From Novosphingobium sp. JCM 18896 (lineage in GTDB: Bacteria > Pseudomonadota > Alphaproteobacteria > Sphingomonadales > Sphingomonadaceae), in NCBI RefSeq assembly GCF_025938095.1, contig NZ_JAPCZF010000001.1, forward strand, positions 124,001 to 188,000: a stretch of 64,000 nucleotides of DNA, written 5' to 3'. The translations under genes and the position numbers were made by a program. Under the pieces are notes generated by a model. That model was given only the letters and a program-made list of their open reading frames with translations, was not told the origin of the DNA and searched no databases. Below are positions 1,557 to 36,024 of the stretch, one piece after another (positions within the stretch are counted from its first letter, which is position 1; each line of letters starts with the position of its first letter).

Positions 1557-2507
1557 TTAGGCCATCGCGTCGACCGTCTCGGTCTGCGCCTGGGGTTCGG
1601 TTTCCCAGCGGCCGAAGCCGTAGTCGCCCTTGATCGTCGTGCGGTGGACGACGCGATCGTACTTGGGATTGCAGCCGCAGGCCTCGTGGAGCATGCGCCA
1701 GTTGTCCCAGATCACCATGTCGGTGGGCTTCCACTGGTGGTAGTAGGGCTCGATCGTCGCTTCGACGTTTTCCCAGATCTCGGCGCAGAGCGCGTTGCCC
1801 TCGGGGGTCTCGTTGCCGACGATGCCGCGGCAGCCGTAGGGCGTCATGTGCAGCACCTTCTCGCCGGTCTCGCGCGTCCACACCGCGGGGTGGATCGAGC
1901 GCGGCAGCTTCTTGGCATATTCGAGGATGTCGTCGTTCTTCGGCTGGATTTCCTTGAAGGTCTTGGGCAGGCCGAAGAACTGGCGCTCGTAATGCATGTC
2001 GAGCGTGTAGAGCAGCTCGATGTTCTCGGCCTTGTCGCGCAGGGTCGGATCCATGTCGTTGTAGATCTGGATGCCGTCGGCGAAGGCGGTCAGGCCGCCC
2101 TCGGGCGCGATCACTTCGGCGCGGAGCACGCCGGCGCGGTTGAGCTCGTTGTTGTAGGTGTGGTCGAAGTGCCAGGGCTGCCAGGTGACCAGGGTCTTGC
2201 CCTCGATCTCGCAGATCGCCGAGTCCGACTGCGCGCGGATCGTGATGACGCCGGGATAGCTGTCGTTGTCGAGGCGCTCGACCATCTTGACCGGGTGGTC
2301 CTTGAGCGGGCCGAAGACGTTGCTGATCTCGACCTGCATCTTGGCGCTGGGCTCGACGTTCTCGAACACGATCATGCCGCGGTCTTCGAACAGCTGCTGG
2401 AGCTGCTTGCGCACGCCCTCGTCGGCCAGCGTCTCCCAGGTCACGCCATCGACGCGCGCACCGAAGGACAGGCCTTCCTGCAGCGGTTTCACTTCGATCG
2501 AAGCCAT
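1557..2507 (-). CDS. TauD/TfdA-family Fe(II)/2-oxoglutarate dioxygenase
   Basis: The 316-aa protein belongs to the TauD/TfdA family, which couples decarboxylation of 2-oxoglutarate to hydroxylation of an organic substrate. The iron triad is visible: H113-x-D115 (W-H-F-D-H-T-Y) and the distal H274 (D-N-W-R-M-L-H), with R289 placed to bind 2-oxoglutarate. The ATG at 2507 is chosen because GGGAG lies 9 bp upstream; an in-frame TTG at 2516 overlaps that site. It is the last gene of a minus-strand set with the DUF2889 and hydratase-like genes, but a 104-bp gap and an operator-like palindrome suggest its own promoter. It ends at a strong terminator. The substrate is unknown; the neighbours point to an acyl or aromatic acid. 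Confidence 0.9.
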   Translation of the reverse strand: MASIEVKPLQEGLSFGARVDGVTWETLADEGVRKQLQQLFEDRGMIVFENVEPSAKMQVEISNVFGPLKDHPVKMVERLDNDSYPGVITIRAQSDSAICEIEGKTLVTWQPWHFDHTYNNELNRAGVLRAEVIAPEGGLTAFADGIQIYNDMDPTLRDKAENIELLYTLDMHYERQFFGLPKTFKEIQPKNDDILEYAKKLPRSIHPAVWTRETGEKVLHMTPYGCRGIVGNETPEGNALCAEIWENVEATIEPYYHQWKPTDMVIWDNWRMLHEACGCNPKYDRVVHRTTIKGDYGFGRWETEPQAQTETVDAMA

Positions 2508-2537
2508 CTGATCCAACTCCCGCCTATTAGGCTGTAT

Positions 2538-2611: not shown

Positions 2612-3364
2612 CTACATTGCCGCGAACGCCTCCGCGGGTTCGAAGCCTTCGAGCGGCTGGTGCCCCGATTGCGAGAAGTCGCGGTGCCAGTTCGGCGTGC
2701 GGGTCGAGCTCTCGGCCTGCGGCAGCTGGTAGTTGAAGCAGACGCCCATGCGGCCCTGGTTGAGCGCGGCGGTCTGTTCGAGCGACGGCGCGACGTATTG
2801 GCGCGCGCCCGAGACGAAGACCGCGCGGCGCAGCAGGGTGGCCCATTCGGCCTCCTGCGGCGAAAGCTCGCGCTTCCAGAGCGACAGGCGGCGCAGGTCG
2901 CGGCCAGAAGCGGAGTCGGCGGTGCCGTGGATCGCGGAGCCGTCGAGCTGCCAGCGCAGTTTCTCGATGCCGTTCTCGTGGAGCGTCGCCGTGGTCCGAC
3001 CCTCGACGCGATCGGCGACGGTCATGTCGAAGCGTGTCGGCGCGGTGTCCTCGGCATGGGCGGCGGCGAGGATCGCGAGATCGTAGAGATGCGTGCAGTG
3101 TTGCGCCGGATCGCGCGCGCCGACTTCGGTCAGCGGTAGGCCGGTGAGCTCGCGCGAGACGAAGTCGGTCGCGCCGGGGCAGGCCGACCACGGATGACGC
3201 ACGGCATGGGCCGCGACCCGCGTGACGCGGCCCTCGGCGTGATCGAGCCGGATATGGAAGCGGTGCATGTCGTCTTCGAGCGCCCCGCCGATCCAGCCGG
3301 CTCCTGGCTGGAGCACGATCCGGCGGTGGAGGCCGGTAGGGTAGGCGGGGAACGCTGGTGTCAT
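2612..3364 (-). CDS. DUF2889 domain protein
   Basis: The 250-aa protein shows the hallmark C-T-H-L-x-D-L-A motif (residues 90-97) of DUF2889 proteins, which have no established biochemical role but are often found beside acyl-CoA enzymes. The N-terminal 60 residues carry the expected R-R-I and acid-rich beta-strand region, and the length is a little above the family norm. Its ATG overlaps the TGA of the upstream hydratase-like gene (ATGA at 3361-3364), which implies translational coupling and suggests the two work on the same compound. No signal peptide or membrane segment is visible. The family call rests on motif recognition; the function is unknown. Confidence 0.7.
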   Translation of the reverse strand: MTPAFPAYPTGLHRRIVLQPGAGWIGGALEDDMHRFHIRLDHAEGRVTRVAAHAVRHPWSACPGATDFVSRELTGLPLTEVGARDPAQHCTHLYDLAILAAAHAEDTAPTRFDMTVADRVEGRTTATLHENGIEKLRWQLDGSAIHGTADSASGRDLRRLSLWKRELSPQEAEWATLLRRAVFVSGARQYVAPSLEQTAALNQGRMGVCFNYQLPQAESSTRTPNWHRDFSQSGHQPLEGFEPAEAFAAM

Positions 3365-4332
3365 GTCTTTGCCTGGCGGCCTCGATAGGACAGCCGCCAT
3401 TCGGGCGGGAACTGGCTGTCGTTGTCCTTGACCGCCGCGGCCAGGCCCTTCTCGAAGGTCTCGGCGTCGACGGCGATCTCGTCGGCGCTGTCGGGCTTGA
3501 CCGCGGGCAGCATGCCCTCGAGCCAGCCGGCGAGGATCGAGCCCATGTATTCGCCCTGTTGCTGCTTGAACACCTCGAAGAAGGTCTTCTGCATGACCAC
3601 GGTATCGGTCGGCCGGTTGCGCGAACAGGCGAGCGCATATTTCATCGTCTCGGCCTCGAGATCCTCCCTGGGCACGACTGAGTTGACGAAGTGCAGGTCC
3701 TTCATCTCCTTGGCGGTGAAGGGGCGGCCGGTGAAGACCATCTCCATGAAGGGCCTCAGGCCCATGGTCAGGGCCCACTGCCACATGCGCGCGGCCCAGC
3801 CGACGTAGCGGAAGGCCGAATGGCCGAACAGCGCGTCGTCCGAGGCGATGACGATGTCGGCGTCGGCGGCCTGGTAGAAGTGCCAGCCGTAGCAATAGCC
3901 CTTGGCCTCGACGATCGAGATCTTCTTGAAGTCCTGCAGGCTGCGCAGGCCGAAGCGCGCGTCGGCATAGAGATTGGTGACGTTGGCGATGTAGCGATAG
4001 GAATCGCGCGGCGGATAGGTCACGTCCTCATCGGCGCCAATGCGGAATTCGGGCAGTGGCGAATAGTCCTCGTCGCCGTTGAACATGCCCGCCATCTCGG
4101 GAAGGTCGGCGCCCGAGCCCAGATGCTCGCCGACCCCGCGGATGATCAGCACCTTGACGTCGTCGTCGACATTGGCGCGCAGTACGAGGTCGGCGAAGCG
4201 CTGGCGCGCGGCGATCGTCGGCGCGTTGAGATAGCCGGGGCGGTTGAGCGTGATGATCGCGATCTTGGTCGCCTTGTCCTTCTCGTAGAGGACGATGTCC
4301 TCGGCGCTCGGCTGGCCCGTTTCGTCTGGCAT
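3361..4332 (-). CDS. Enoyl-CoA hydratase/isomerase-like protein lacking both catalytic glutamates
   Basis: The 323-aa protein has the crotonase fold, with the oxyanion-hole region near residues 70-80 (H-L-G-S-G-A-D-L) and the central helix region G-Y-C-Y-G-W-H-F-Y-Q-A-A-D. Aligned by eye to rat mitochondrial hydratase, Glu144 becomes Tyr153 and Glu164 (F-G-x-P-E) becomes Ala173 (F-G-H-S-A). It should therefore not be a standard hydratase; crotonase-fold decarboxylases, hydrolases and C-C lyases use other residues. It is also about 60 residues longer than a typical hydratase. It is the first gene of the operon, divergent from a TetR gene, and overlaps the DUF2889 gene by 4 bp. Fold assignment is secure, reaction unknown. 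Confidence 0.85.
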   Translation of the reverse strand: MPDETGQPSAEDIVLYEKDKATKIAIITLNRPGYLNAPTIAARQRFADLVLRANVDDDVKVLIIRGVGEHLGSGADLPEMAGMFNGDEDYSPLPEFRIGADEDVTYPPRDSYRYIANVTNLYADARFGLRSLQDFKKISIVEAKGYCYGWHFYQAADADIVIASDDALFGHSAFRYVGWAARMWQWALTMGLRPFMEMVFTGRPFTAKEMKDLHFVNSVVPREDLEAETMKYALACSRNRPTDTVVMQKTFFEVFKQQQGEYMGSILAGWLEGMLPAVKPDSADEIAVDAETFEKGLAAAVKDNDSQFPPEWRLSYRGRQAKT

Positions 4333-4493: not shown

Positions 4494-5222
4494 ATGGGAG
4501 CTCGTGATCCGGTGAACCAGGTCGTGCCGCAATCGACGTTCGAGGACGACGTCCAGGTCGTGCCCTACGATCCCGCGCGGCCGATCCCGCTGTTCCAGGG
4601 GCTCGGCCGCAGCAACCCGCCGCCGCGGCGCAACCAGCGGCTGCGCCGCGCGCAGATCCTCGCGACGATCCGCCGGCTGCTGACCGAGGACGGGCTCGAC
4701 GGCGTCACCGTGCGCGGTATCGCCCAGGAATCGGGTCATGCCGTGCAGACGATCTACAACCTCGTCGGCCCGCGCGACCAGGCGATCGTCGAGGCGATCA
4801 GCGAGTACACCCGCTATGTCGGCCACACCGCGCTGCCCGATCCCGGCGATCCCGAGGCCGTGGTCGAGATCATCGGCCGCTGGCTCCAGTCGATCGAGGC
4901 CGCGCCCGAGTTCTGCCGTCAGGTCTGCCTGATTTTCTTCACCCCCTCGCGCGGGATCTTCTACCACTTCCGCGACAAGCAGCGGAAGGCGATGCAGGGC
5001 CTGCTGGTCAAGCAGCAGAAATGCGGCGTGCTGCGCGCCGACGCCAATCTGGGCGAACTGGCTGAACAGCTGGTGACCTTCGCCACGGCCTCGTGCGTCG
5101 AATGGTCCGACCGGCCTTTCCCGCTGCCGCAGCTCCACCAGCGCATCCGCTCGGGCTTCGGCAACCTGCTCGACGGCGCCCGCGTCAACCCGACGGCGCC
5201 GCAGTGGAGCTATGCGTCCTAA
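4494..5222 (+). CDS. TetR-family transcriptional regulator
   Basis: The 242-aa protein has a TetR DNA-binding domain at about residues 50-100 (R-R-A-Q-I-L-A-T...V-T-V-R-G-I-A-Q-E-S-G...T-I-Y-N-L-V), including the helix-turn-helix and the recognition-helix Y-N-L in place of the usual Y-Y/H-F. The C-terminal ligand domain follows. An unusual 45-residue N-terminal extension rich in Pro precedes the domain; a GTG at 4512 with GGGAG upstream is an alternative start that shortens it by six residues. It is transcribed away from the hydratase-like operon, the usual arrangement for a local repressor, and its stop overlaps the stop of the phytase-like gene by 3 bp on the opposite strand. Confidence 0.88.
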   Translation: MGARDPVNQVVPQSTFEDDVQVVPYDPARPIPLFQGLGRSNPPPRRNQRLRRAQILATIRRLLTEDGLDGVTVRGIAQESGHAVQTIYNLVGPRDQAIVEAISEYTRYVGHTALPDPGDPEAVVEIIGRWLQSIEAAPEFCRQVCLIFFTPSRGIFYHFRDKQRKAMQGLLVKQQKCGVLRADANLGELAEQLVTFATASCVEWSDRPFPLPQLHQRIRSGFGNLLDGARVNPTAPQWSYAS

Positions 5223-6691
5223 GGCTTGGATGGCGGCAGGGTCACACGGTAGACCAATAGCCGGTTGTGATTGTCGAAGTCCGAATTGCAGGCTTGCCCC
5301 GACATTCGGCAACGACGCGCGACGAAGTCGTTGTCGTTGCCGACGAAGAGGAAATGGTCGTTCGGATGATCGGTCTCAAGCGCCGGAACGAGATCGAGCG
5401 CCTCCCACTTCTCGGAAAGATCCGAAACCGCAAGTCCGAAGCGCGCGAGTTGCGCGGGGTTGAGCAGGTTCACGAATTCGGTCGTGTCGGCCGGGACGAT
5501 GTCGGCGCGCAAAGTCGTGGAGGCCGAATCCTGCAGGATCGAGCTCGTGCCCGTCTCGCTCTCGCTGCCGGCGAGATTGGTCGCGCCCGCGAGATCGACC
5601 AGCAGCACGCTCTTGTAGACGATCGGCGACTTGCCTGCACCGAGGCCGGCACCATCGCGCGCGAGCATGAAAAACCGGCTATCGTCGAGCGCGAGGATCT
5701 CGCTCTGCGCGGCGGTCTTGTCGGGAGGTCCGCCCTGGCCGTCCTCGGTATAGGCCGGCAATCGCACGACATGATGCGCGACGGGGCGGGCTGGCGTGGG
5801 CGTGCGGCTGACGTCATAGACCAGCACCCGTGTGTTGATACGCCCGGCGGCGTTGCCCTGGGCAGTGTCCTGGACCAGCGCGCTCTGCAGCGCCACGAAC
5901 AGTCTGCTGCCGTCGGGTGAAAGCGAGAGGCCTTCCGGGCCCTGGTTGTTGCGACGGCCGCTGTCGGGTGCCTGCAGCGATCCGAAGAACGGCGCGCCTG
6001 CGCGGCGCGGCACGATCGCCGGGGGCGGGCTGATCACGCCCTGCAACCGCCCGCTTCGGTCGAAATAGTAGACGTTGGCCGTGTATTCGTCGCCGACGTA
6101 GAAGCCGCCGTCGCGGGTGAACTGCAGCGCTTCGGCGTCGAGCGAGACCTTGCCGCGGCCCACGCCGCTGGCCGGGGCCGGGAAGACGATGCCGCGCTCG
6201 GTCAGCGTGCCCGTGCCGGGATCGGCGCCGGTGAATGGCTTGCCATTGAAGTCGCGCAGTTCGAGCCCGCCATCGGGGACCAGCGTGACCTGGCCGTCGC
6301 CGGGCGTGAAGCGCAGCCGCAGACGCTCTAGCCGGGCGGGATAGTCGAAGAACAGGTTTGCCGCGGGATCGTTGCGACCGCGGTCGGGCAGGGTCCAGAG
6401 CACGCCTTCGTAGTGATCGCCGACCCGCTTCCAGCTGCCCGGCGCGATCTTGAGCGAGGAAAACGATCCCAGCGTATCGCCGAGAAAGTCGACCGTATCG
6501 GCAGCCAGCCGGCCGCTGCCGACCAGACCCTGGTTGATGAAGGTCTGGCCGCGCAAGGTGACGCTGTGCGCGCCGGCGGTCTGATCGAGATGCGGCCGGG
6601 TCACGGGCTCTTCCCCGCCGGCAAAGGCGGGGAAGGCCGGAAACAGCGACAGCAGGATCAGCAGCGCGGCGCGCGAAGGCTTAGAAATCAA
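5219..6691 (-). CDS. Esterase-like activity of phytase family protein (phytase-like beta-propeller)
   Basis: The protein (490 aa from the TTG at 6691) matches the phytase-like family by D-A-E-A-L-x-F...F-Y-V-G-D-E-Y-x-x-x-V-Y-Y-F and N-Q-G-P-E-G-L-S-L-S-P-D-G-S-R-L-F. Residues 2-25 form a signal peptide ending A-F-A/G, so it is exported. The TTG start is chosen because the signal peptide begins there; the frame upstream is only the shadow of the receptor gene, which it overlaps by 11 bp. Being coupled to a TonB-dependent receptor suggests periplasmic or surface processing of the ligand taken up, possibly an organic phosphate or an ester. Members have been annotated by similarity more than by assay. 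Confidence 0.8.
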   Translation of the reverse strand: MISKPSRAALLILLSLFPAFPAFAGGEEPVTRPHLDQTAGAHSVTLRGQTFINQGLVGSGRLAADTVDFLGDTLGSFSSLKIAPGSWKRVGDHYEGVLWTLPDRGRNDPAANLFFDYPARLERLRLRFTPGDGQVTLVPDGGLELRDFNGKPFTGADPGTGTLTERGIVFPAPASGVGRGKVSLDAEALQFTRDGGFYVGDEYTANVYYFDRSGRLQGVISPPPAIVPRRAGAPFFGSLQAPDSGRRNNQGPEGLSLSPDGSRLFVALQSALVQDTAQGNAAGRINTRVLVYDVSRTPTPARPVAHHVVRLPAYTEDGQGGPPDKTAAQSEILALDDSRFFMLARDGAGLGAGKSPIVYKSVLLVDLAGATNLAGSESETGTSSILQDSASTTLRADIVPADTTEFVNLLNPAQLARFGLAVSDLSEKWEALDLVPALETDHPNDHFLFVGNDNDFVARRCRMSGQACNSDFDNHNRLLVYRVTLPPSKP

Positions 6692-9014
6692 AACCGATCG
6701 TCCCGAACACCTGCCGCGGCGCCGACGAGTGGAACACGACGACGCTGCCCGTCGGATCGTTCGGCGCGAACACGCTGCTGTCGAAGTTCGAGGCATAGCG
6801 CTTGTTGGTCAGGTTCGTCACGTTGAGCGAGAGCCTGGCGCCCTTGAGCGGGCCGACTTCGCCGAAGTCGTAGCTCAGGCCGAGGTCGGCGGTGAAGTAG
6901 CCGGCGAAGCTCTGGTCGTTGGTGTAGGTGTAGTAGCGGCGGCCCGTGTACTTGCCCTGGATCGAGGCCCCGAAGCCGCCCTGCTTCACGCTGAGCACGC
7001 TGGCCAGCATGGTCTTGGGCGTGTCGACCTGCTGCTTGCCCGCGGTGGCGTAGAGCACGCAGGTGGTCGTGCACCAGTTGAGGTCGTCGTCGTAGGTCGA
7101 CTTGTTGAACGAGGCCGAATTGTACCAGTTCAGCCAGGGCAGCGGCTTCCACAGCACGCCGATTTCGGCGCCCTTGCTGGTGACGCTGTCGGCGTTGTGG
7201 AACGAGTTGCCGCAACCCGGATTCTGCTGCTGGTTGGTCGGGCAGGGGTTGTACTGCAGCAGGCGGTCGTGGAACTTCACGTAGTAGCCGCTGAGCGAGA
7301 CCTGCAGCGGGCCGCTGACATAGCGGTAGCCGCCTTCGAAGCTCTTCGAGGTCTCGGGCTTCAAGGTCTTGCCCTGGACGTCCCAGACCGCCTGCGAGAC
7401 CGACTGCGGCCCCAGCTTGAAGCCGCCCTGGTACATGGCCATGTTCTCGGCATAGGAGGCGAACAGCTCGTGCTGCGAGGCGACCTGCCAGTGCAGGCCG
7501 ATCTGCGGCAGGAAGTTGTCCTTCGCGACGAGCGAGCCGGTGGCGAACTGGCTCGAGGCCGGCGGTGCCGCCTTGGCGATGCCGCGGATCGCCGTGGCGT
7601 CGGACCGGGCGTAGGTGCTCTTGAAGCCGAAATCGATGGTCAGCGCGTCATCGAGCAGCTTGACCGTGTCCTGGACGTAGAACTGGCGCGTCTTCCACGC
7701 GGTTTCCTGGACCCACTGCGCGAGATCGGGCTGGCCCTTGAGGAACTGCGCGAGGCTGAACGGGCCGGTGACGTTGGTCCACAGGTAGCGCGCGGCGCTG
7801 CTGGTGTTGTCCTCGATCCAGAAGCCGGCCTGGAGCTGGTTGAAGCCCAGCTGCCAGCTCAGGCTGCCGACCACGCCGGTGCGATCGATCGTATAGCGCG
7901 TGTCGCGGATCTGGACCGGGATGTCGTCGGTGGTGACCGTCGTGCCCTGGTTCGACAGGCCGGCGATCCAGTTGTTGCCCGCGCCCTTGTCGTTGTGGTG
8001 GTAGACCTGCAGGTGCGCCTTGAGGTGCGCGGTGACGTCCACGTCGGTGGCGATGTAGAACAGGTTGTCGTTGCGCAGGATCTGGCCGTTGGTGAAGGTC
8101 ACGTCGGCGTTCTTCTGCGGCGCCGGGGCGGCGGCGCACTTGATCGGCGTGGTGGTCACCGTGCAGGCGGCGACGCCCAGATAGCGGTTCCAGTCGGGCG
8201 CATAGCCGGCCCAATCCCAGCCGAGGCGGTTCAGCATGTCCTTCGACAGATAGGCGTCGTCGGCCTGGTTGGTGCGCGAAAGGTCGGCGAAGGCGGTGAT
8301 CTTGACGCCCTCGATCTCGTACTTGACCTTGGCGTTGAGCTGCTTGCCGGTCGACCGGATGTAGTCGCCCTGGTTCACGAACAGGTCCTGTTCGACGTAG
8401 TGGCCCGAAACGTAGGCCGAGAAGCCGTCATGCTCGCCCGTATCGAAGCGCGCGAAGACCCGGCGGCTGCGTTCGCTGCCGATCGTGCCGTTGACCTTGA
8501 GGCCGAGGTCCGCCTTCGGGTCGCTGCTGAAATAGGTCAGCGCGCCGCCGAGGTTGCTGGTCGAGGCGATGCCGAGGCCGGCGATGCCCGTGGCGAGATC
8601 GGCGCGGGCGAGGTTCTCCGAGATCAGCGCGCGGCTGATCGTCAGGCCGTTGTAGTTGTTGTAGGCGCCGTCGCCGAGCGGCATGCCGTCGAGCGTGTAG
8701 CCGAGATGGGTGGTGTTGAAGCCGCGTACCTGCAGGGTCAGCGACTGCTCGTTGGTGCCGAGTGCATCGATCGACTGCGCGCTCACGCCCGGCAGGAAGT
8801 TCAGCGCCTTCTGGATGCTGGTGCCGGGCGGCAGAATGTCGAGGTTCGCGGGAACCAGCGTCGAGACCGAGCGGGTCTCGCCGGTGCCGACGACGACGAT
8901 GTCCTGGCTTCCGGTGCTGTCTGCCTCCGCGGTGCCAGCCTCTTCGGCATGGGCCTGAACGGAAACAGTCAGACACGCAGCAGTCGTCAACGCGAAAACA
9001 AACTTCTTCAACAC
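6681..9014 (-). CDS. TonB-dependent outer-membrane receptor (first of two)
   Basis: The 777-aa protein has a signal peptide (K-K-F-V-F-A-L-T-T-A-A-C-L-T-V-S-V-Q-A-H-A), a plug domain with the L-P-G-V-S-A and V-R-G-F motifs, and a long beta-barrel that ends with Phe (G-T-I-G-F-D-F), as expected for an outer-membrane barrel. A recognisable TonB box stretch D-I-V-V-V-G lies near residue 38. GTG at 9014 or the adjacent TTG at 9011 is the likely start, both just after GAGGG; upstream codons do not look like signal sequence. It overlaps the phytase-like gene, forming a two-gene operon. The family imports siderophores, sugars, aromatics or phosphorylated compounds; this ligand is unknown. Confidence 0.92.
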   Translation of the reverse strand: MLKKFVFALTTAACLTVSVQAHAEEAGTAEADSTGSQDIVVVGTGETRSVSTLVPANLDILPPGTSIQKALNFLPGVSAQSIDALGTNEQSLTLQVRGFNTTHLGYTLDGMPLGDGAYNNYNGLTISRALISENLARADLATGIAGLGIASTSNLGGALTYFSSDPKADLGLKVNGTIGSERSRRVFARFDTGEHDGFSAYVSGHYVEQDLFVNQGDYIRSTGKQLNAKVKYEIEGVKITAFADLSRTNQADDAYLSKDMLNRLGWDWAGYAPDWNRYLGVAACTVTTTPIKCAAAPAPQKNADVTFTNGQILRNDNLFYIATDVDVTAHLKAHLQVYHHNDKGAGNNWIAGLSNQGTTVTTDDIPVQIRDTRYTIDRTGVVGSLSWQLGFNQLQAGFWIEDNTSSAARYLWTNVTGPFSLAQFLKGQPDLAQWVQETAWKTRQFYVQDTVKLLDDALTIDFGFKSTYARSDATAIRGIAKAAPPASSQFATGSLVAKDNFLPQIGLHWQVASQHELFASYAENMAMYQGGFKLGPQSVSQAVWDVQGKTLKPETSKSFEGGYRYVSGPLQVSLSGYYVKFHDRLLQYNPCPTNQQQNPGCGNSFHNADSVTSKGAEIGVLWKPLPWLNWYNSASFNKSTYDDDLNWCTTTCVLYATAGKQQVDTPKTMLASVLSVKQGGFGASIQGKYTGRRYYTYTNDQSFAGYFTADLGLSYDFGEVGPLKGARLSLNVTNLTNKRYASNFDSSVFAPNDPTGSVVVFHSSAPRQVFGTIGFDF

Positions 9015-9309
9015 ATGGCCCTCACTGATGCGGAAGCGCCTTGAGAACACGTGTCCGGCGCCCCGATTTCGTTGCGGGCGTGCCTATTTCACGCGTTGAT
9101 GACAGTCTGGCGACAAACGTTGGTCGACGGAAAAAATAGCAATGTTCGGAAACAATCCCTGCTGTGCCGGCCGCTTAGGCGATCGGGCCGAGGCTGGCGC
9201 CGGTCGTGGCTGGCTGCCGATAATCCGGTCAGTTGGTCTGCGTGCTCGCTGCCAGGCCGAATGACGCCTTTAGTTCGGAACGTTCAAGCCGTCGGGGCAT
9301 TTGCAGGCG
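9015..9309. other. Intergenic region between divergent genes
   Basis: This 295-bp stretch separates the TonB receptor from the AsmA-like gene and must hold promoters for both. It is noticeably less GC-rich around 9100-9160. I see no convincing -35/-10 pair, palindrome or small gene. Confidence 0.5.
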
Positions 9310-11154: not shown

Positions 11155-11179
11155 CAGGCGGGCTCGTCATCCTTTTCCC

Positions 11180-11494
11180 TCAGCCCTGCTCGCGGCGGCG
11201 GCGGCGCTCGATTTCTTCGGGCTCGTCTTCGTCGACGTGCTCGAGTTCGCTGCGCGCCTCGGGATGTTCGCGCAGCAATTCGTCGACCTTGGCATGGATG
11301 GCCTGGGTATCGCGGTGGGCGGCACGCTGGATGAGGAAGGTCATCGCCCAGGCCGCCAGGACCGCGCAGGCGTGCCAGTCGAACGTTTCGGGCTCGAACC
11401 AGGCCCAACCCGCGGCATAGACGGGAACGACGAGAATGGCCGCGGGTCTCGCGGTCGCGACGCCGATCGTCGTCAAGAGATTGGCAAATCCCAT
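11180..11494 (-). CDS. Low-affinity iron permease family small membrane protein
   Basis: The 104-aa protein has two hydrophobic segments (about residues 12-30 and 36-54) followed by the family-typical Q-R-A-x-H-R-D-T-Q-A-I-H-x-K-V-D-E-L motif and a charged tail (E-E-I-E-R-R-R-R-R-E). Bacterial members are named after a yeast low-affinity iron transporter, but transport has rarely been shown for them. The ATG at 11494 is preferred because GGAG lies 9 bp upstream; the ATG at 11503 sits directly on that GGAG. It converges on the AsmA-like gene with a 25-bp gap. Confidence 0.75.
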   Translation of the reverse strand: MGFANLLTTIGVATARPAAILVVPVYAAGWAWFEPETFDWHACAVLAAWAMTFLIQRAAHRDTQAIHAKVDELLREHPEARSELEHVDEDEPEEIERRRRREQG

Positions 11495-23656: not shown

Positions 23657-25258
23657 TCACCCTCGCTCGATCAACTCACCCAATTCGTGCAGCTTGAGCT
23701 TGCCCGTGGCGGTGCGCGGGATCTGGCGCTCTTCGATGAACACGATCCGCCTGGGCACCTTGTAGCTCGACAGAGTCTCGCGCAGCGCCGTGCGCAGACT
23801 GTCCTCGGTGGGCGCGAAACCCTCCGCCGGGACCACGGCAGCGGCGACCACCTGGCCGAATTCGGCATCGTCGAGCCCGGTGACCACGGCTAGTGCCACT
23901 TCGGGCAGTTCGTTCAGCGCGGCCTCTACCTCGAGCCGCGACACGTTGGCGGCGCGGGTCTTGATCATGTCGTTGCGGCGCGCGACGAAGTAGAGGCAGT
24001 CGTCGGCGTCGATGCGTACGAGGTCGCCGGTAGGATAGAAGCCGTCGGGCGTGAACACCTCGTCGTCGCGGCGCTTGTACATTCCGCGCATCAGCGCACC
24101 GCCGCGCAGTTGCAGTTCGCCGATCTCGCCCACGGGCACTGGCGCGCCCGTCTCGGGATCGACCACGCGGCGCTCGTAGCCGTTCACCGGGCGGCCGCAG
24201 GCGAAGGGCTTGTCCGCGGGCATCCGGTAGTCGAGCGGTTCGGCGCTGTGCGGCGCGAAGGTCTCGCTCATGCCGAGCATGCCCGACTGGAACTGCGGCG
24301 GGATCAGTTCGCCGTTCTCGTCGCGGAACGGGCCGAGGCCGACGATGGCGTCGATGTCGATGCCGCGTGTCGGCGCCAGCTTGCGCAGCCGCGCGAGGCC
24401 GTCGCCCCAGCCGTTGAGGCGGTTGACCTTCAGCGCCTTGATCGTCTCGACCACGACTTCGAGATCGGGCGAGGCGGGATAGACCAGCGTCGCGCCCTGG
24501 CTCAGCACCTGGAAGAACATCGCCATGCCGCCGAGCCAGAAGGCGGGCAGCATCGGCAGCATGCGGTCCTCGGGGCTTATCAGGAACAGCCTGGCCAATT
24601 CGACCGGGTGGCGCGTGACGTTCCATTGCGTGTGGACCACGGCCTTGGGCAGCGAGGTGCTGCCCGAAGTGTAGACGATCACTGCCTCGTCGCTCGGCGC
24701 GACCTGCGCCTCGACCGAGGTCAGGATTGCCGGGGAGACCTCCGCGGCGCTTGCGCGCAGATCGTCGATCGCGCCGGCCCAGGGCAGGTCTGCGGCATCG
24801 TCGAACCAGACCGCGCGCAGGTAGGGCGCCTCTTCCAGTCGCAGCGCGCCGGGCGCGCAATCGGCGAGCGCGGGGAAGGCGGCCTCGAGCGTCCGTGCGT
24901 AGTCGTGGCTGAGGAAGCGCCGCGCCGAGATCAGCACCTGGGTGTCGCTGTTGCGCAGGATGTGCGCGAGTTCCTTGGGCGTCGCCATCGTCGAGACGCA
25001 GGTGATCAGGCCGCCGATCCGCAGGCTCGCGAGGAAGGCGGTCGCCCAGAGCAGCCCGTCGGGGGCGATCAGTGCGATCCGCGTGCCCTTGCCCGCGCCG
25101 GTCGCCAGCAAGGCCCGCGCCATCTCCCCGCTGCGCCGGTCGAGTTCTGCATAGGTCACGGTTTCGGCAACTGTGGCGATGGCGTCGTGATCGGCGCGCG
25201 CGGCGACGAGGCCGGCGAGCATCGCGGGTATCGTGGAGGCCGGTTCGGTTCCGGTCAT
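23657..25258 (-). CDS. AMP-forming acyl-CoA synthetase
   Basis: The 533-aa adenylate-forming enzyme activates a carboxylic acid to its CoA thioester. The P-loop is at residues 196-206 (Y-T-S-G-S-T-S-L-P-K-A, with S-L in place of the usual G-x), G-M-S-E-T-F near 300, Y-P-T-G-D near 405 and the C-terminal catalytic Lys in R-T-A-T-G-K-L-K. AGGGAGA precedes the ATG. It converges with the molybdopterin gene and is divergent from the SDR-SDR-P450 operon across a 286-bp region holding a 31-bp inverted repeat and an operator-like site. It probably provides the entry step for one of the local CoA pathways. Confidence 0.92.
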   Translation of the reverse strand: MTGTEPASTIPAMLAGLVAARADHDAIATVAETVTYAELDRRSGEMARALLATGAGKGTRIALIAPDGLLWATAFLASLRIGGLITCVSTMATPKELAHILRNSDTQVLISARRFLSHDYARTLEAAFPALADCAPGALRLEEAPYLRAVWFDDAADLPWAGAIDDLRASAAEVSPAILTSVEAQVAPSDEAVIVYTSGSTSLPKAVVHTQWNVTRHPVELARLFLISPEDRMLPMLPAFWLGGMAMFFQVLSQGATLVYPASPDLEVVVETIKALKVNRLNGWGDGLARLRKLAPTRGIDIDAIVGLGPFRDENGELIPPQFQSGMLGMSETFAPHSAEPLDYRMPADKPFACGRPVNGYERRVVDPETGAPVPVGEIGELQLRGGALMRGMYKRRDDEVFTPDGFYPTGDLVRIDADDCLYFVARRNDMIKTRAANVSRLEVEAALNELPEVALAVVTGLDDAEFGQVVAAAVVPAEGFAPTEDSLRTALRETLSSYKVPRRIVFIEERQIPRTATGKLKLHELGELIERG

Positions 25259-25293
25259 GGCGCTCTCCCTTTCGGACATCATCGTACCTGAAC

Positions 25294-25370: not shown

Positions 25371-25435
25371 GCCTCCCCGCAACGCGGGTAAACTCAAAAT
25401 GCCGCGAGGGGCAGGGCGGGTCCACTGGCATTGGC

Positions 25436-25544: not shown

Positions 25545-26291
25545 ATGGCGGAGAAGATCGCTTTCGTGACGGGCGCAGGTTCCGGCATCGGCCGGGCGAC
25601 CGCGCGGCTGTTCGCCGAACGCGGCCATGCCGTGGCGCTGGTCGACATGAACGAGGCCGGCGGGCGCGAGACCGAGGCGATGATCCGCGAGGCCGGCGGC
25701 GAGGCGCGCTTCATCCAGGCCAACGTCGCCGACGACGATTCGGTGCGCAACGCGGTCGAGCAGACGCTGGCCGCCTATGGACGGATCGATGCCGCCTTCA
25801 ACGCCGCGGGGATCGACGGCGAGGTCGGCAAGCTGACCGCCGAGGGCTCGCTCGACAACTGGCACCGGGTGATCGGGGTGAACCTGACCGGTGTCTGGCA
25901 CTGCCTGCGCCACCAGATCCCGGCGATGCTGGCGACCGGTGGCGGTGCCATCGTCAACTGTGCGTCGACCGCGGGCATCCGCGGCGCGGCCTTCTGTGGC
26001 GCCTATTCAGCCTCGAAGCACGGCGTCGTCGGGCTGACCAAGGCCGCAGCGCTCGAATATGCGAGCCAGGGAATCCGCATCAACGCGGTCTGCCCCGGCA
26101 TGATCGAGACGCCGATGACGCAGCGCCCGGGCATGGGCGAGATCATCCAGGAACTGGTCAAGACCAGCCCGCTCGAGCGCATCGGCCAGCCGCAGGAGAT
26201 CGGCGCCGCGGTCTGGTGGCTCTGCGGCCCCGACGCCAGCTTCGTCCACGGCCAGGCCGTCGCCGTCGACGGCGCCTTGACCAGCCGCTGA
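25545..26291 (+). CDS. SDR-family NAD(P)-dependent oxidoreductase (operon gene 1)
   Basis: The 248-aa classical short-chain dehydrogenase has T-G-A-G-S-G-I-G (residues 9-16), N-A-A-G near 87, the catalytic Ser in N-C-A-S-T-A-G and Y-S-A-S-K near 154. An Asp at the end of strand 2 (V-A-L-V-D-M-N) favours NAD. AGAGAGGAAGAG precedes the ATG. It is the first gene of an operon with a second SDR (13-bp gap) and a P450, so it probably oxidises an alcohol made by that P450 or handles a hydroxyacyl intermediate. Substrate unknown. Confidence 0.92.
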   Translation: MAEKIAFVTGAGSGIGRATARLFAERGHAVALVDMNEAGGRETEAMIREAGGEARFIQANVADDDSVRNAVEQTLAAYGRIDAAFNAAGIDGEVGKLTAEGSLDNWHRVIGVNLTGVWHCLRHQIPAMLATGGGAIVNCASTAGIRGAAFCGAYSASKHGVVGLTKAAALEYASQGIRINAVCPGMIETPMTQRPGMGEIIQELVKTSPLERIGQPQEIGAAVWWLCGPDASFVHGQAVAVDGALTSR

Positions 26292-26304
26292 GGCGGACGC
26301 GGAC

Positions 26305-27240
26305 ATGACCGAATTGCGTTTCGAAGGCCGTACCGCGATCGTCACCGGCGCCGGCGGCAATCCCAGCCTGGGCCGCGCCCATGCGCTGCTGCTCGGCGCG
26401 CGCGGGGCCAACGTCGTGGTCAACGACATCGGCGTCGATCCCGAGCAGCGTCACTATCCGGGCGCGGCCTCGGCCGAAGCCGTCGCCGCCGAGATCCGCG
26501 CGGCCGGCGGCAAGGCGATCGCGAACACGGCCTCCGTGGCCACGCCCGAGGGCGCCGAGGCCATCGTCCAGGCCGCGCTTGACGCCTTCGGCTCGGTGGA
26601 TATCCTTGTGAACAACGCGGGGATATCGATCGGCGCCCCGTTCGACCAGATTTCCGCGCGCGACCTCCAGCGGCATATCGACATCAACCTGATGGGCACG
26701 ATCTGGTGCAGCCGCGCCGCCTGGCCGCACATGAAGGCCGCCGGCTATGGCCGTATCGTCAACATCACCTCGAGCTCGATGACCGGCTTCGCCGACCAGG
26801 CCGCCTATGCCGCGAGCAAGGGCGGCGTGTGGTCGCTGACGCGCGCGCTGGCGGCCGAGGGCGAGAAGCTGGGCATCAAGGTCAATGCGGTCAGCCCCGG
26901 TGGCTACACGCGGCTCGTCATCTCGACGATGGAGGACGATTCGCCGCTGCTGGCCCACGCCAAGCAGACCCTGCCGCCGCACCTGTCCTCGCCCGCCGTG
27001 GCCTTCCTCGCGCACGCGGATTGCCCGGTCACCGGCGAATGCATCGATTCGGTCGGGGGCGAGGTGCAGCGCTGCTATATCGGCCGGACGACGGGCTTCA
27101 ACGAGCGCGACCACACGATCGAGACGATCGGCGAACGCTGGGCGAGCGTGATGGACACCGACGGCGCCGTCGTGGTCGGCCTGGCGACGATGGACACCTC
27201 GGACTGGGGCCTGCGCGCCTACGACGGGGCGGAAGCGTAG
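26305..27240 (+). CDS. SDR-family oxidoreductase, FabG/multifunctional-enzyme-like (operon gene 2)
   Basis: The 311-aa protein has T-G-A-G-G-N-P-S-L-G-R, a longer glycine loop of the kind found in the hydroxyacyl-CoA dehydrogenase domain of peroxisomal multifunctional enzyme, then N-N-A-G, I-T-S-S-S as catalytic Ser and Y-A-A-S-K. The C-terminal 50 residues extend beyond a classical SDR, also as in that subgroup. Its TAG overlaps the GTG of the P450 gene by one base (TAGTG), giving translational coupling. A 3-hydroxyacyl-CoA or ring-hydroxyl dehydrogenase role is plausible and not proven. Confidence 0.9.
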   Translation: MTELRFEGRTAIVTGAGGNPSLGRAHALLLGARGANVVVNDIGVDPEQRHYPGAASAEAVAAEIRAAGGKAIANTASVATPEGAEAIVQAALDAFGSVDILVNNAGISIGAPFDQISARDLQRHIDINLMGTIWCSRAAWPHMKAAGYGRIVNITSSSMTGFADQAAYAASKGGVWSLTRALAAEGEKLGIKVNAVSPGGYTRLVISTMEDDSPLLAHAKQTLPPHLSSPAVAFLAHADCPVTGECIDSVGGEVQRCYIGRTTGFNERDHTIETIGERWASVMDTDGAVVVGLATMDTSDWGLRAYDGAEA

Positions 27241-29889: not shown

Positions 29890-31778
<1,889 letters not shown>

Positions 31779-31797: not shown

Positions 31798-33087
31798 ATG
31801 ACCGTATTCACCAACGCACGAGTGTTCGACGGCCGCCAGGCCCTGCCGGGGCTGCACACGGTGGTGCTCGAAGGCAACCGTATCGCCTCGGTCTCGCAGG
31901 GGGCGGCCGAAGGCGAGGCGATCGACCTCGGCGGCATGACCCTGATGCCGGGGCTGATCACCTGCCATTTCCACCCCGATTTCTACAAGTTCACCCTGGC
32001 CCAGGGCTTCTCCGGCGAGCCCTTGGGCAAGGAGCTGCCACCGGGCGTGCTGATGGCGATCGGCGTGCGCAATTGCCGCGTGCTGCTGGAAAGCGGCTTC
32101 ACCGGCTATGTCGGCGCCACCGCCGGGCACGATATCGACGCGCAGCTCAAGATGGCGATCGAGCAGGGGATCATTCCTGGGCCGCGGCTGCGCGCCTGTT
32201 CGATGCACATCGGCACCACCGGCGATCTCAACCACTCGAAGAACTGGTGGCGCGAGATGACCTCGCCGGGCACCGACACCTTCGTCGACGGACCCGCCGA
32301 GATGCGCAAGACCGTGCGCGAATTCATCCGCCGCGGCGCCGAGACGATCAAGCTGTTCACCAGCGCGGGTCACGGCTTCCCGGGGCCGGTGCCGCGCAAC
32401 ATGGAGCGCGACGAGATCGAGGCCGCGGTCCAGGCCGCGCACCACCGCGGCGCCAAAGTCCGCGCGCACTGCGCCGACCGCGCGATGATCGAGGAATGCG
32501 TCGAGCTCGGCGTCGACATCATCGATCACGGCGACGAGATCGACGAGGCGCTGATCGCGCTGATGGCGCAGAAGGGCACCGTCTGGGTGCCGAGCCTGAT
32601 CTATCCCAAGTGCCTGCTCCAGCTCGGCTGGGGCGATGCGCGGATGCAGGAGCTCTACGACCACGTCCGCGCGATGCTGCCCAAGGCGCAGCAGGCGGGC
32701 GTCAGGATCCTGATAGGCGACGACTATTCGGGCGTCTTCCGCGAGGTGATTGCCGACGATCCGCTCGACCACCAGGTCGGCAACTATGGCCGCGAATTCG
32801 CCTACTATGCCGAAATCGACGGGCTCTCGCCGGCCGAAGTGCTGGCCTGGGGCACGGCCAATGCCGGCGAGGTGCTGACCGGCGGGCGCGACAGGCTGGG
32901 CGTGATCGAACCCGGCGCGCTGGCCGACCTGATCGTGGTCGACGGCGATCCGCTGTCCGACCTTTCGATCCTGTCGCGGCCCGAACAACACCTGAAGGCC
33001 GTCGTCCGTGACGGCCAGTTCGTCATCGACCGCGTGTCGCAAGCGCGTCTCGCGCCCGCCACGCTCATGGGAGTAGCCGCCGAATGA
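31798..33087 (+). CDS. Metal-dependent amidohydrolase, imidazolonepropionase/prolidase type (operon gene 3 of 7)
   Basis: The 429-aa protein has H57-x-H59 (I-T-C-H-F-H-P-D), a possible carboxylated Lys in E-T-I-K-L-F-T-S-A-G-H-G, metal His residues in V-R-A-H-C-A-D and I-I-D-H-G-D, and a C-terminal urease-type beta sandwich (G-V-I-E-P-G-A-L-A-D-L-I-V-V-D-G-D-P). Such enzymes hydrolyse amides, lactams or peptide-like bonds. The usual catalytic Asp appears in L-I-G-D-D-Y-S-G. A 19-bp gap precedes it and its stop overlaps the next ATG (ATGA, 33084-33087). It suggests that the operon substrate contains an amide, carbamate or lactone. Confidence 0.9.
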   Translation: MTVFTNARVFDGRQALPGLHTVVLEGNRIASVSQGAAEGEAIDLGGMTLMPGLITCHFHPDFYKFTLAQGFSGEPLGKELPPGVLMAIGVRNCRVLLESGFTGYVGATAGHDIDAQLKMAIEQGIIPGPRLRACSMHIGTTGDLNHSKNWWREMTSPGTDTFVDGPAEMRKTVREFIRRGAETIKLFTSAGHGFPGPVPRNMERDEIEAAVQAAHHRGAKVRAHCADRAMIEECVELGVDIIDHGDEIDEALIALMAQKGTVWVPSLIYPKCLLQLGWGDARMQELYDHVRAMLPKAQQAGVRILIGDDYSGVFREVIADDPLDHQVGNYGREFAYYAEIDGLSPAEVLAWGTANAGEVLTGGRDRLGVIEPGALADLIVVDGDPLSDLSILSRPEQHLKAVVRDGQFVIDRVSQARLAPATLMGVAAE

Positions 33088-33611
33088 TCCCCGCCCAGCG
33101 CAACAAGACCTATATGCAGCTCGCCTTCGTCGTGCCCAATCTCGAAGCGGCGATCGACCATTGGGTGCGCACCGCCGGGGCGGGGCCGTTCTTCGTGTTC
33201 GAGGAACTGCACTTCGACGAGAGCACCTATCGCGGCCAGTCGGCCGACGTGCAGCCCTGCCGCGCCGCGATCGGCCAGCACGGCGACATGCAGATCGAGC
33301 TGATCCAGCCGCTGACCGAAGGGCCGGGGATCTGGACCGACGTCGTGCCGCTGGGCGGCGCGGGCTTCCACCACACCGGGCTCTACTGCACCGACTACGA
33401 GGGCGAGCGTGCGGCTGCGCTGGCGGGCGGCGACATGGCCTTCGAGGGCCTGATGATGGGCGCCAAGACCTGCTATATCGACACCGTGAAGACCCTGGGC
33501 TTCATGACCGAACTGATCACCGCGAACCCCGTCGCCGAAATGGTCTTCGGCCAGATCAAGGCCGCCGCCGAAGGCTGGGACGGCAGCGATCCGATCCGGA
33601 CGATGGGCTAA
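33084..33611 (+). CDS. VOC-family (glyoxalase/extradiol-like) protein (operon gene 4 of 7)
   Basis: The 175-aa protein shows the vicinal-oxygen-chelate fold through M-Q-L-A-F-V-V-P-N-L-E-A-A-I-D-H-W at the N-terminus, Q-I-E-L-I-Q-P in the middle and G-F-H-H-T-G-L-Y-C at the start of the second module. Candidate metal ligands are E77 and H98/H99. The family includes isomerases, epimerases and dioxygenases, so the reaction is open. It is coupled to the amidohydrolase by a 4-bp overlap and is 4 bp from the next gene. Confidence 0.85.
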   Translation: MIPAQRNKTYMQLAFVVPNLEAAIDHWVRTAGAGPFFVFEELHFDESTYRGQSADVQPCRAAIGQHGDMQIELIQPLTEGPGIWTDVVPLGGAGFHHTGLYCTDYEGERAAALAGGDMAFEGLMMGAKTCYIDTVKTLGFMTELITANPVAEMVFGQIKAAAEGWDGSDPIRTMG

Positions 33612-33615: not shown

Positions 33616-33963
33616 ATGACCACGCTGCCGCCCGACTTCGCCGATCTCGAGCGCTTCGTGCCCGACTGGGTCCATGCCGACGCGCCCGCGCGCATGGCCA
33701 AGCGCCAGGGCTCGACGATCGCCGACATCAAGGCCTTCTACCAGGCCATGCTGCCGCGCGGCGAGGCCGTGCTCGCCTGCCTGCGCGGCCACCAGCTCGG
33801 CGACCTGCCGGCCGAGGTCGAGACGCTCCTGCGGCTGATGCTGATGCTGGCCGAGGTCGCGCCCGCGGTCGAATGGTACGACGATCCCGCGGTCTACGAC
33901 GGCTTTCCCGTCGGACGCATCTGCTACACCCGGCTGATCTCCGATACGGGAGCCCAGGCATGA
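33616..33963 (+). CDS. Hypothetical 115-aa protein between VOC and Rieske genes (operon gene 5 of 7)
   Basis: I do not recognise a family. The protein is soluble and mildly acidic, with an N-terminal F-A-D-L-E-R-F-V-P-D-W-V, a helical middle (I-K-A-F-Y-Q-A-M-L-P-R-G-E-A-V-L-A-C-L-R and a Leu-rich V-E-T-L-L-R-L-M-L-M-L-A-E-V) and a C-terminal E-W-Y-D-D-P-A-V-Y-D-G-F-P. No cysteine pairs or metal motif stand out. The A of the next gene's ATG lies within its last sense codon (ATGA, 33960-33963), so its synthesis is tied to the Rieske oxygenase. An accessory or assembly role for that oxygenase is a guess from position. Coding is supported by spacing and codon use. Confidence 0.75.
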   Translation: MTTLPPDFADLERFVPDWVHADAPARMAKRQGSTIADIKAFYQAMLPRGEAVLACLRGHQLGDLPAEVETLLRLMLMLAEVAPAVEWYDDPAVYDGFPVGRICYTRLISDTGAQA

Positions 33964-35207
33964 ACGAGCTCGCCACCCCGCCGGTCCCCGGCATCGGCCT
34001 GACCGCGCGCTATCCCGAGATCGACACCGGCCCGGTCGACACCGCGATCTATCACGAACCTGCGGCCTACGCGAAGGAGATGGAAGCCATCTTCAAGCGA
34101 TCCTGGTTCATGGTCGGCCGGACCGAACAGATCGCGCGGGCGGGCGACTTCTTCACCTATACCTTGCCGACCTTCCGCCAGGAGATCCTGGTCTGCCGCG
34201 ATCGCGACGGCCATGTGAACGCGTTCCACAACGTCTGCACCCACCGCGGCAACGTCGTCGAGCATCGCAAGGAGGGGCACAGCCAGGGCCTCTTCATGTG
34301 CCGCTTCCACGGCTGGGCCTTCGATCTCAAGGGCGGCCTCGCGCGTATCCGAGACGAGGAAGGCTTCTTCGGCGTCGACAAGAGCTGCAACGGCCTGAAG
34401 CGCATGCCCGTCGGGGTCTGGCAGGGCTTCATCTGGGTCTGCCCGAGCGACGAGCCGTACCAGAGCCTCGAGGATTTCCTCGGCGAACAGGGCCGCGACA
34501 CCGCCGGCTATCCCTGGGGCGCCTGCACGCAGTCCTACCAGTTCGAGGTCGAGGTCGACTGCAACTGGAAGCTGGTCAATGACAGCCCGGCCGAGGTCTA
34601 TCACATCCCCGTGCTGCACCCGAATTCGGCGGCGCCGACGATGATGGCCTCGGGCAACATCATGGGCCGGCTGCTCGGCACCGAGATCAAGGGTCACCAC
34701 CGCACCAATTCGCACTACAGCGTGATGGGCGAGCCCAAGCCCGTGCAGAAGCTCGCCTATTTCCACGCCGCCGCGGCGCAGAACGTGGCGGTGGACGACA
34801 AGGGCTACGAACTGCCCAAGGGGATCAATCCCACGCGCTCGCCGTGGTGGACGGTCGACCTGATCCAGTTCTTCCCGACGATCGGCTTCACCCTGTCGGC
34901 GGGCATGTACACCGCGCACCAGGTCTGGCCGCTGGGCCCGAACAAGTCGCTCTACCAGCAGCGCGTCTTCGTCCGACCGGCGAAGACCGCGGCCGAGCGC
35001 TTCGGCCAGGAGAACACCATGGTCGAGTTCCGCGACGTGGTGATGGAGGACTTCTCCACGCTCGAACGCATCCAGCGCGCGCTCGACACCGGCCAGATCA
35101 AGCAGTTCCACTATCACGACCACGAACTGGCGCTGCGGCACCAGCATCATGTCGTGACCACGATCCTCGCGGAATGGGACCGCGAGCAAGCCTCAGCACA
35201 AGGATAA
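33960..35207 (+). CDS. Rieske non-haem iron oxygenase, alpha subunit (operon gene 6 of 7)
   Basis: The 415-aa protein has a Rieske [2Fe-2S] site C93-x-H95...C114-x2-H117 and a mononuclear iron site N-D-S-P-A-E-V-Y-H-I-P-V-L-H with H215 and H220. The residue bridging the two centres of neighbouring subunits, Asp in naphthalene dioxygenase, is Glu212 here, as in carnitine-type monooxygenases. No beta subunit, ferredoxin or reductase gene is adjacent; it is therefore likely an alpha-only oxygenase using a separate electron chain. Aromatic, amine and steroid substrates are all known for such proteins. Its ATG overlaps the previous stop and the PhyH gene starts 4 bp downstream. Confidence 0.93.
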   Translation: MNELATPPVPGIGLTARYPEIDTGPVDTAIYHEPAAYAKEMEAIFKRSWFMVGRTEQIARAGDFFTYTLPTFRQEILVCRDRDGHVNAFHNVCTHRGNVVEHRKEGHSQGLFMCRFHGWAFDLKGGLARIRDEEGFFGVDKSCNGLKRMPVGVWQGFIWVCPSDEPYQSLEDFLGEQGRDTAGYPWGACTQSYQFEVEVDCNWKLVNDSPAEVYHIPVLHPNSAAPTMMASGNIMGRLLGTEIKGHHRTNSHYSVMGEPKPVQKLAYFHAAAAQNVAVDDKGYELPKGINPTRSPWWTVDLIQFFPTIGFTLSAGMYTAHQVWPLGPNKSLYQQRVFVRPAKTAAERFGQENTMVEFRDVVMEDFSTLERIQRALDTGQIKQFHYHDHELALRHQHHVVTTILAEWDREQASAQG

Positions 35208-35211: not shown

Positions 35212-36024
35212 ATGGCGACGATCGCACAGACCGCCCCCTGCCGCGCGGTGACGCCCGAGGAAGTGGCGCATTACGAGACGCACGGCTGGGTCCAGCTCAA
35301 GCGCTTCATCTCGCCCGAGATGATCGCGACGATGCTGACCAAGGCCAAGGAACTGATGGGCGAGGACGGCGACAGCAACCCGCCCTATGGCATCGACCAG
35401 CCCTATTTTAACGCCTTCGCCGCCTCGGGCTACAACGACGAGCGGGTGAAGCCGGTGTTCGACGGGATCGGCCAGGCGGCCAAGGCGCTGATGAACCGCA
35501 AGTCGGACTATGGCGTGCGCCTGTTCAACGACTTCTTCGCGCCCAAGCTGCCCGCGGCCAAGAAGACGCGCAACCAGGGCAATGGCCCGACCTCGTTCCA
35601 CCAGGACTACATCACCTTCGCGGTCGATCGTTCGGGTGGCATGACCTTCTGGATCCCGCTCGAAGCCTATGGGCCCGAGGCGGGGACGATGTCGTTCCTC
35701 AACGGCTCGCACAAGCTGGGGGTGCTGGGGAACTATACCAGTTACGACGGCAAGGACATTCGCGAGGTCTGGCCCGAGCTCAAGGACTGCGAGGAGAGCC
35801 CGCAGATCGACTACGAGCTGGGCGACATCACCGTGCACACGCACCTGACCGTGCATGGGGCCGGCGCCAACCACCTCGACCGGCCGCGCTGGGCCTACCT
35901 CGTCCTGCCGCAACCTGCCGACGCACGATGGAACGGCGCGCCGCCCGAGGCCTTCGATCCCAAGGCGCATGGCATGGAGCCTTACGGCAAGTTCCCCGAC
36001 GAGGCGTTTCCGATCATCGGGTGA
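35212..36024 (+). CDS. Phytanoyl-CoA dioxygenase (PhyH) family protein (operon gene 7 of 7)
   Basis: The 270-aa Fe(II)/2-oxoglutarate enzyme has H130-x-D132 (S-F-H-Q-D-Y) and the distal H215 (L-T-V-H-G-A-G), with Arg in the R-P-R-W-A-Y strand for 2-oxoglutarate. PhyH proteins hydroxylate fatty acyl-CoAs, antibiotics and other secondary metabolites. It ends the operon; palindromic repeat D begins 17 bp after its stop. Having a Rieske and a PhyH oxygenase in consecutive genes suggests two oxidations of one molecule. Confidence 0.9.
   Translation: MATIAQTAPCRAVTPEEVAHYETHGWVQLKRFISPEMIATMLTKAKELMGEDGDSNPPYGIDQPYFNAFAASGYNDERVKPVFDGIGQAAKALMNRKSDYGVRLFNDFFAPKLPAAKKTRNQGNGPTSFHQDYITFAVDRSGGMTFWIPLEAYGPEAGTMSFLNGSHKLGVLGNYTSYDGKDIREVWPELKDCEESPQIDYELGDITVHTHLTVHGAGANHLDRPRWAYLVLPQPADARWNGAPPEAFDPKAHGMEPYGKFPDEAFPIIG

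Follow-up and report, generated by a model that had tools for sequence, protein, structure and literature searches.

Stabilisation of an enolate in an oxyanion hole is the chemistry common to the crotonase superfamily. The Anabaena beta-diketone hydrolase ABDH (2j5s) and the structure 3q1t are members for which C-C bond chemistry is known and proposed, respectively; according to the available part of the source, 3q1t carries neither of the two catalytic glutamates of hydratases, and the function proposed for it is that of a beta-diketone hydrolase, as in ABDH, not of a hydratase (PMC3584854). Two other crotonases, EchA20 (which clusters with MenB) and BadI, catalyse ring opening in coenzyme A (CoA) esters, the glutamates not being discussed in the accessible text of that paper (PMC5380842). 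Here we analyse a 64,000-nucleotide stretch of the Novosphingobium sp. JCM 18896 genome (contig NZ_JAPCZF010000001.1, positions 124,001 to 188,000; hereafter the window), in which the gene of a crotonase-fold protein overlaps a DUF2889-like gene. This crotonase shares its superfamily with ABDH and 3q1t and its CoA-ester catabolic setting with EchA20 and BadI, and it belongs to an uncharacterised but well-conserved subfamily that cannot use the textbook hydratase mechanism. In the literature searched, no paper on this subfamily or its pathway was found, and one member in an annotated record is named enoyl-CoA hydratase/isomerase family protein.

An earlier note on this DNA had given the position of the crotonase gene correctly, and we add that it lies on the minus strand; the 4-bp overlap with the DUF2889-like gene, also reported there, is an ATGA at 3364-3361. 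The protein belongs to Pfam family ECH_1 (E=1.4e-19), and none of the NCBIfam matches listed (25 of 58) reaches its cut-off. When it was aligned with P0001, the enoyl-CoA hydratase-like protein of the window, and with a canonical hydratase of the same genome that has the FGQPE motif, Tyr153 fell in the column of Glu144 and Ala173 in that of Glu164, the very replacements that the note had described, and P0001 was seen to hold glutamate at both positions, again as claimed. His171 aligns with the glutamine of FGQPE, and at the oxyanion-hole columns (Ala98/Gly141) the alignment shows Ala75 of the GADL loop kept and Trp150 occupying the Gly141 position. Measured against enoyl-CoA hydratases (EC 4.2.1.17), the protein has the crotonase fold and has no glutamate at the 144 and 164 positions. 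P0001 shares with it the fold and the GADL loop, but residues 78-109 of the crotonase (~32 residues) have no counterpart in P0001.

These substitutions extend to the whole subfamily, which we compared in 83 distinct rows. These consist of 80 public loci, the protein of the window and two copies from its own genome, with repeat own-genome loci left out; the public loci are the best 80 among 495 that were retrieved by six peptide patterns. Glutamate is found at neither hydratase position in any of the 83 rows, and the crotonase is therefore not expected to be a hydratase. Tyr153, Trp150, Asp157, His171, Arg175 and Arg182 are each present in all 83, as are Glu261 and Glu272; Glu142 is present in 82 and alanine at position 75 in 74, and position 173 is either Ala (36 rows) or Ser (47 rows). 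The subfamily motifs, YCYGWHFY and FGHxxFRY, are common to members from Pseudomonadota and Actinomycetota. Since YCYGWHFY was among the search patterns, Tyr153 and Trp150 were partly selected; His171 and Arg175 lie outside all six patterns. Tyr153 is kept in members that were reached independently of the patterns, namely the two own-genome copies and the Mycobacterium branderi protein, found by plain similarity, and L184, found by chance beside a DUF2889 gene. A Streptomyces relative with 35% identity (L106) retains HPAFRY and has lost Tyr153, so the histidine motif looks older than the tyrosine. The closest public relatives are from Novosphingobium, with a locus in a metagenome-assembled genome (L005) at 96% identity, and those from Nocardia, Mycobacterium and Frankia are 61-65% identical.

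The AlphaFold2 model of the crotonase, built from 62 rows, has a mean predicted local distance difference test (pLDDT) score of 89 and a predicted TM-score (pTM) of 0.89. Its helix 149-157 carries Tyr153 and its helix 172-176 carries Ala173, a predicted helix order that agrees with the alignment. All 1000 top-ranked Foldseek chains have a Z of at least 8. The best matches, in sequence as well as in fold, are 4k29 from Xanthobacter (Z 29.3, root-mean-square deviation (rmsd) 2.3 over 262 residues), 3njb from M. smegmatis (Z 28.6), and 3t3w (Z 27.8) and 3ome (Z 27.5) from Mycobacterium, all with ~24-28% identity over the fold. Their titles say only enoyl-CoA hydratase or hydratase/isomerase, without a tested function. 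Like our protein, 3t3w and 3ome have no glutamate at either column in the printed alignments; unlike it, they show neither the YGWHFY nor the FGHxxFRY motif there.

Is the loss of the glutamates itself remarkable? We consider that it is not. The window's own genome holds 38 crotonase genes, counted from 40 PF00378 matches after merging two second fragments, and 15 of them have neither glutamate, 13 have both, six have only the second and four only the first. We thus rejected the idea that the loss is a rarity: it is ordinary for this genome, and the distinctive thing is the conserved subfamily. One of the counted genes (C22:351555-352064) has an internal TGA and is possibly a pseudogene.

Taken together, we are confident that the crotonase is an enzyme acting on CoA esters without being a hydratase. 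In the mechanism that we propose, a ligase or a CaiB-type CoA-transferase would convert an oxidised substrate into its CoA ester, the crotonase would hold the thioester in its oxyanion hole, and the chemistry would run through an enolate, with His171 as a putative acid/base, perhaps together with Tyr153, with Arg175 or with an invariant glutamate at another position. Glu142, Glu261 and Glu272 remain candidate catalytic residues. The DUF2889-like protein would be a late-acquired, optional accessory, perhaps one that binds metal. The fuller description, of an acyl-CoA-processing non-hydratase of a conserved subfamily working in a CoA-ester pathway with the DUF2889-like protein as an optional accessory, we regard as evenly poised between right and wrong. 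As to the reaction, it is tempting to speculate that the crotonase performs hydrolytic or retro-Claisen C-C cleavage, a tentative first guess made because of the precedents of 3q1t/ABDH and EchA20/BadI.

Several points weigh against this reading. In the available part of the source, ABDH and 3q1t have a histidine at the Glu164 position, where our subfamily has Ala or Ser; His171 lies two residues before that histidine, and the protein thus falls outside the beta-diketone hydrolase group. The placement of the active site was read only from the alignment and from the helix ranges of the model, the conservation of Tyr153 is in part a product of the search pattern, and this residue is lost in L106. 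None of the NCBIfam matches listed for 10 proteins of the catabolic block described below reaches its cut-off, and the pathway is unnamed. Moreover, the data would be equally compatible with decarboxylation or isomerisation. Indeed, a superfamily decarboxylase, lyase or isomerase, putatively similar to methylmalonyl-CoA decarboxylase or HCHL and not a C-C hydrolase, is the alternative that survives best, although we consider it rather unlikely: an active site with Tyr and His substituted for Glu fits an enolate chemistry without hydration, and a VOC/Glyoxalase_4 partner is found at 15 of the 80 loci.

The earlier note had proposed that DUF2889 and the crotonase form a functional pair with a new reaction. 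The changed reaction is reasonable, both glutamates being gone throughout the subfamily, whereas the partnership is not borne out by the co-occurrence of the two families. A DUF2889-like gene stands beside the crotonase gene at only four of the 80 homologous loci (L005, L007, L008 and L013) in addition to the window. The five paired members all belong to one 9-row Novosphingobium clade in a tree of 66 rows, whose support of 92/92 is below the 95/80 mark of the tree tool (the surrounding 16-row group has 100/97). The other four clade members (L006, L011, L032 and L037) have no DUF2889-like gene, which makes the gene optional, and we rejected DUF2889 as an obligate partner on this distribution. 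At L032 and L037 the same slot is taken by an unrelated protein, whose match to TonB_C is weak and below the threshold (the scan was done on the L032 protein, to which that of L037 is 66% identical). The ATGA overlap is kept in four of the five paired loci, L007 being the exception; however, the unrelated neighbour at L037 overlaps the crotonase gene by the same ATGA, and the 4-bp overlap alone thus proves little.

We also looked from the side of DUF2889, at 29 sites comprising 26 of the 27 found with the DUF2889-like protein of the window (P0003) in other Novosphingobium genomes (n=19), a fragment in genome G339 having been dropped, and three sites of the own genome; the window site is not among the 29, and L163 is on the same contig as L007. 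A crotonase lies within 400 bp at nine of the 29, as it does at the window site, against a chance expectation that we estimate at ~1.6% (38 crotonases in 5.33 Mb), and within 3 kb at 16 of the 29. No crotonase was found in the available stretch at 11 sites, three of which are on contigs of ~7 kb or less. DUF2889-like genes of the genus do favour crotonase neighbourhoods, and the crotonases next to them are of unrelated types, with Tyr/Ala, Ser/Gln, Ala/Ala, Met/Phe, Met/Val, Gln/Gly, Glu/Ala or Glu/Glu at the two positions. A preference of DUF2889 for glutamate-less crotonases was rejected, as no clear excess over the own-genome background was seen by eye. L164 and L165, whose DUF2889-like proteins are 50% identical to P0003, have no crotonase match in the available stretch, which for L164 is only 3.8 kb. 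Therefore, an obligate two-protein system in which DUF2889 and the crotonase make up one enzyme with a new reaction is very unlikely, in spite of the kept overlap and the excess of close crotonases; gene clusters for CoA catabolism would unite the two families without direct pairing. PF11136 occurs in 26 of 299 Pseudomonadota genomes, with four copies in the window's own genome and a single copy in each of the others.

Two further explanations return to the crotonase alone. A hydratase or dehydratase activity retained through Glu142, Glu261 or Glu272, whose near or full invariance would allow it, is hard to credit, as these residues align with no catalytic position and the two active-site helices follow each other in the usual order in the predicted model. 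Least probable of all is an inactive crotonase with a binding or scaffolding role, which the loss of both catalytic glutamates could suggest, but Asp157, His171, Arg175, Arg182, Glu261 and Glu272 are invariant across two phyla and the genes lie steadily within enzyme clusters.

No function for DUF2889 is given in the available text of the literature found to mention the family. The label given in the note to the DUF2889-like protein holds with a reservation: all seven members of the P0003 alignment match DUF2889, the sole other family, DUF5801, being weak and present in two, but P0003 itself scores 21.5 bits against PF11136, below the gathering cut-off of 25. A classic DUF2889 profile matches that of the genus with 97% probability. 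His34, Cys62, Cys90 and His92 are invariant in the seven rows and His58, Cys87, Cys120 and His122 in 24 of 24 aligned classic DUF2889 proteins, and in our reading of the sequences the two His-Cys-Cys-His sets, a feature common to both groups, probably correspond to each other.

In the P0003 AlphaFold model (five rows, mean pLDDT 69.5), the four top VIA-align rows for residues 19-109 are all IscU, with 1q48 at Z 8.3 and an rmsd of 2.5 over 89 residues and the others at Z 7.3, 7.1 and 6.9, the last tied with rows of MHC-like MICA at 6.9. Models that have no clear match typically reach a best Z of 7 to 8. With Foldseek, the top 50 were MHC-like chains with TM-scores <0.35 and included no IscU. 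In sequence searches, the seven-row alignment found nothing among PDB sequences up to E=10, the seven members had no match to PF01592 (NifU_N) up to E=1, the window genome had no PF01592 match at 1e-10, and a DUF2889 profile against 25 near-identical IscU sequences gave a probability <1%. With HHalign, 58 DUF2889 rows against 19 IscU/SufU rows (eight of those 25 plus 11 diverse NifU_N proteins, the fragments L252 and L253 having been left out of 13) scored 27.5, with a probability of only 17%, against 14.7 for the highest-scoring of 60 controls in which the column order was shuffled or reversed. For three smaller DUF2889 profiles the scores were 19.1, 25.7 and 21.5, and their controls reached at most 17.3, 18.4 and 19.7; global alignment gave nothing useful.

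The ligand set of IscU consists of three cysteines with an aspartate and a histidine. The HHalign alignment sets Cys62 and Cys90 on two of these cysteines; in our own reading of the register, P0003 has no cysteine at the first position and a histidine replaces the aspartate. The resemblance in fold and in two cysteine positions is suggestive, not proven, and a remote kinship to IscU with a possible metal site, not membership, is likely. One paper relates DUF2889 to a SCOP superfamily, and its main text, as far as available, does not name SufE, NifU or IscU (PMC4520260). For a family so little mentioned, this resemblance offers a testable hint of a metal site.

The genes around the crotonase and those of a block farther along the window are collected in Table 1. 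The flanks of the 80 loci were searched by tblastn for homologues of these genes, with a minimum of 40% identity over 60% of the length. The TetR regulator has homologues at 10 of the 80 loci, L005 (the nearest relative) is the only one of them with the TauD-family dioxygenase next to the crotonase, and at least one of the seven commonest partners is present at 29 of the 80; four other window genes (5219-13383), taken as a control, have homologues at none. In L005 the ligase, both SDRs and the P450 stand directly beyond the TetR gene, which places the block of the window genome ~20 kb away. The order on a Mycobacterium branderi plasmid is TetR, amidohydrolase, PhyH, VOC, ligase homologue (absent from the gene table of the record), crotonase, amidohydrolase and SDR. 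The genes at 23657-36024 look like an unnamed catabolic cluster.

Table 1. Genes and related proteins discussed in the text (positions are those of the window unless a contig is named).
Feature	Coordinates	Strand	Remarks
TauD-family dioxygenase	1557..2516	-	downstream of DUF2889-like gene
DUF2889-like protein P0003	3364..2612	-	250 aa, sub-threshold for Pfam DUF2889
Crotonase-fold protein	4332..3361	-	323 aa, ATG start, Pfam ECH_1
TetR-type regulator	4494..5222	+	divergent from crotonase gene
Enoyl-CoA hydratase-like protein P0001	20660..21466	+	comparison only; both glutamates kept
AMP-forming acyl-CoA ligase	23657..25282	-	homologues at 16/80 crotonase loci; Pfam on homologues L005, L008
SDR oxidoreductase	25545..26291	+	homologues at 15/80 loci
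SDR oxidoreductase	26305..27240	+	homologues at 11/80 loci
Cytochrome P450	27240..28502	+	homologues at 16/80 loci
Aldo-keto reductase (AKR)	30013..30915	+	homologue at one locus, L006, at least 45% identity
Alpha/beta hydrolase	30912..31778	+	homologues at 3 loci: L006, L018, L019
Prolidase-like amidohydrolase	31798..33087	+	homologues at 18/80 loci
VOC/Glyoxalase_4 protein	33084..33611	+	homologues at 15/80 loci
115-aa orphan	33616..33963	+	homologues at 6/80 loci
Rieske oxygenase alpha subunit	33960..35207	+	homologues at 6/80 loci
PhyH-family oxygenase	35212..36024	+	homologues at 15/80 loci
Subfamily member L097	own genome C1:61548-62480		70% identical to window crotonase; cluster with CaiB-like transferases
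Subfamily member L101	own genome C22:108017-108961		65% identical to window crotonase; cluster with CaiB-like transferases

At most Actinomycetota loci the crotonase is accompanied by Amidohydro_2, two M24 peptidase-like proteins and a fused double CoA-transferase III (825 aa in L049), and the clusters of these four partners comprise 35, 36, 25 and 40 of the 83 loci clustered, the 40 loci with the fused CaiB-type transferase being all from Actinomycetota. These counts rest on flank gene boundaries from codon-based callers, which put some genes on the wrong strand (e.g. cluster 6). The run Amidohydro_2-M24-M24-crotonase-CoA-transferase is seen at L036, L042, L049 and L050, and some of its members are missing in some loci; the combination may resemble the enzyme families of dimethylsulfoniopropionate (DMSP) cleavage. 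Both partner sets contain a CoA-activating enzyme as well as prolidase-like hydrolases, which come from different families in the two sets. This points to a pathway with an amide-bearing substrate and a CoA-ester step but is no proof of it.

Subfamily gene clusters recur in sphingomonads, Solimonas-type bacteria, Nocardia, Mycobacterium and Frankia, so that one assay would re-annotate many genes, and characterising the subfamily could reveal a new catabolic pathway. We could speculate further, as a long shot, that crotonases with the YGWHFY/FGHxxFRY motifs are a new functional class in Actinomycetota and Pseudomonadota, in which a His171/Tyr153 active site would replace the glutamates and cleave C-C bonds in CoA esters of an amide- or terpenoid-like substrate, and that DUF2889 may be an offshoot of the IscU fold with a His-Cys-Cys-His metal site, recruited several times as a helper of such non-hydratase crotonases. 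The cluster around L101 also has AKR, Rieske, amidohydrolase, ferredoxin- and P450-like genes, the neighbour labels of L097 and L101 being mostly by eye or by BLAST resemblance. The 115-aa orphan is conserved between the VOC and Rieske genes and has no match up to E=0.001 in Pfam or up to E=1e-30 in NCBIfam.

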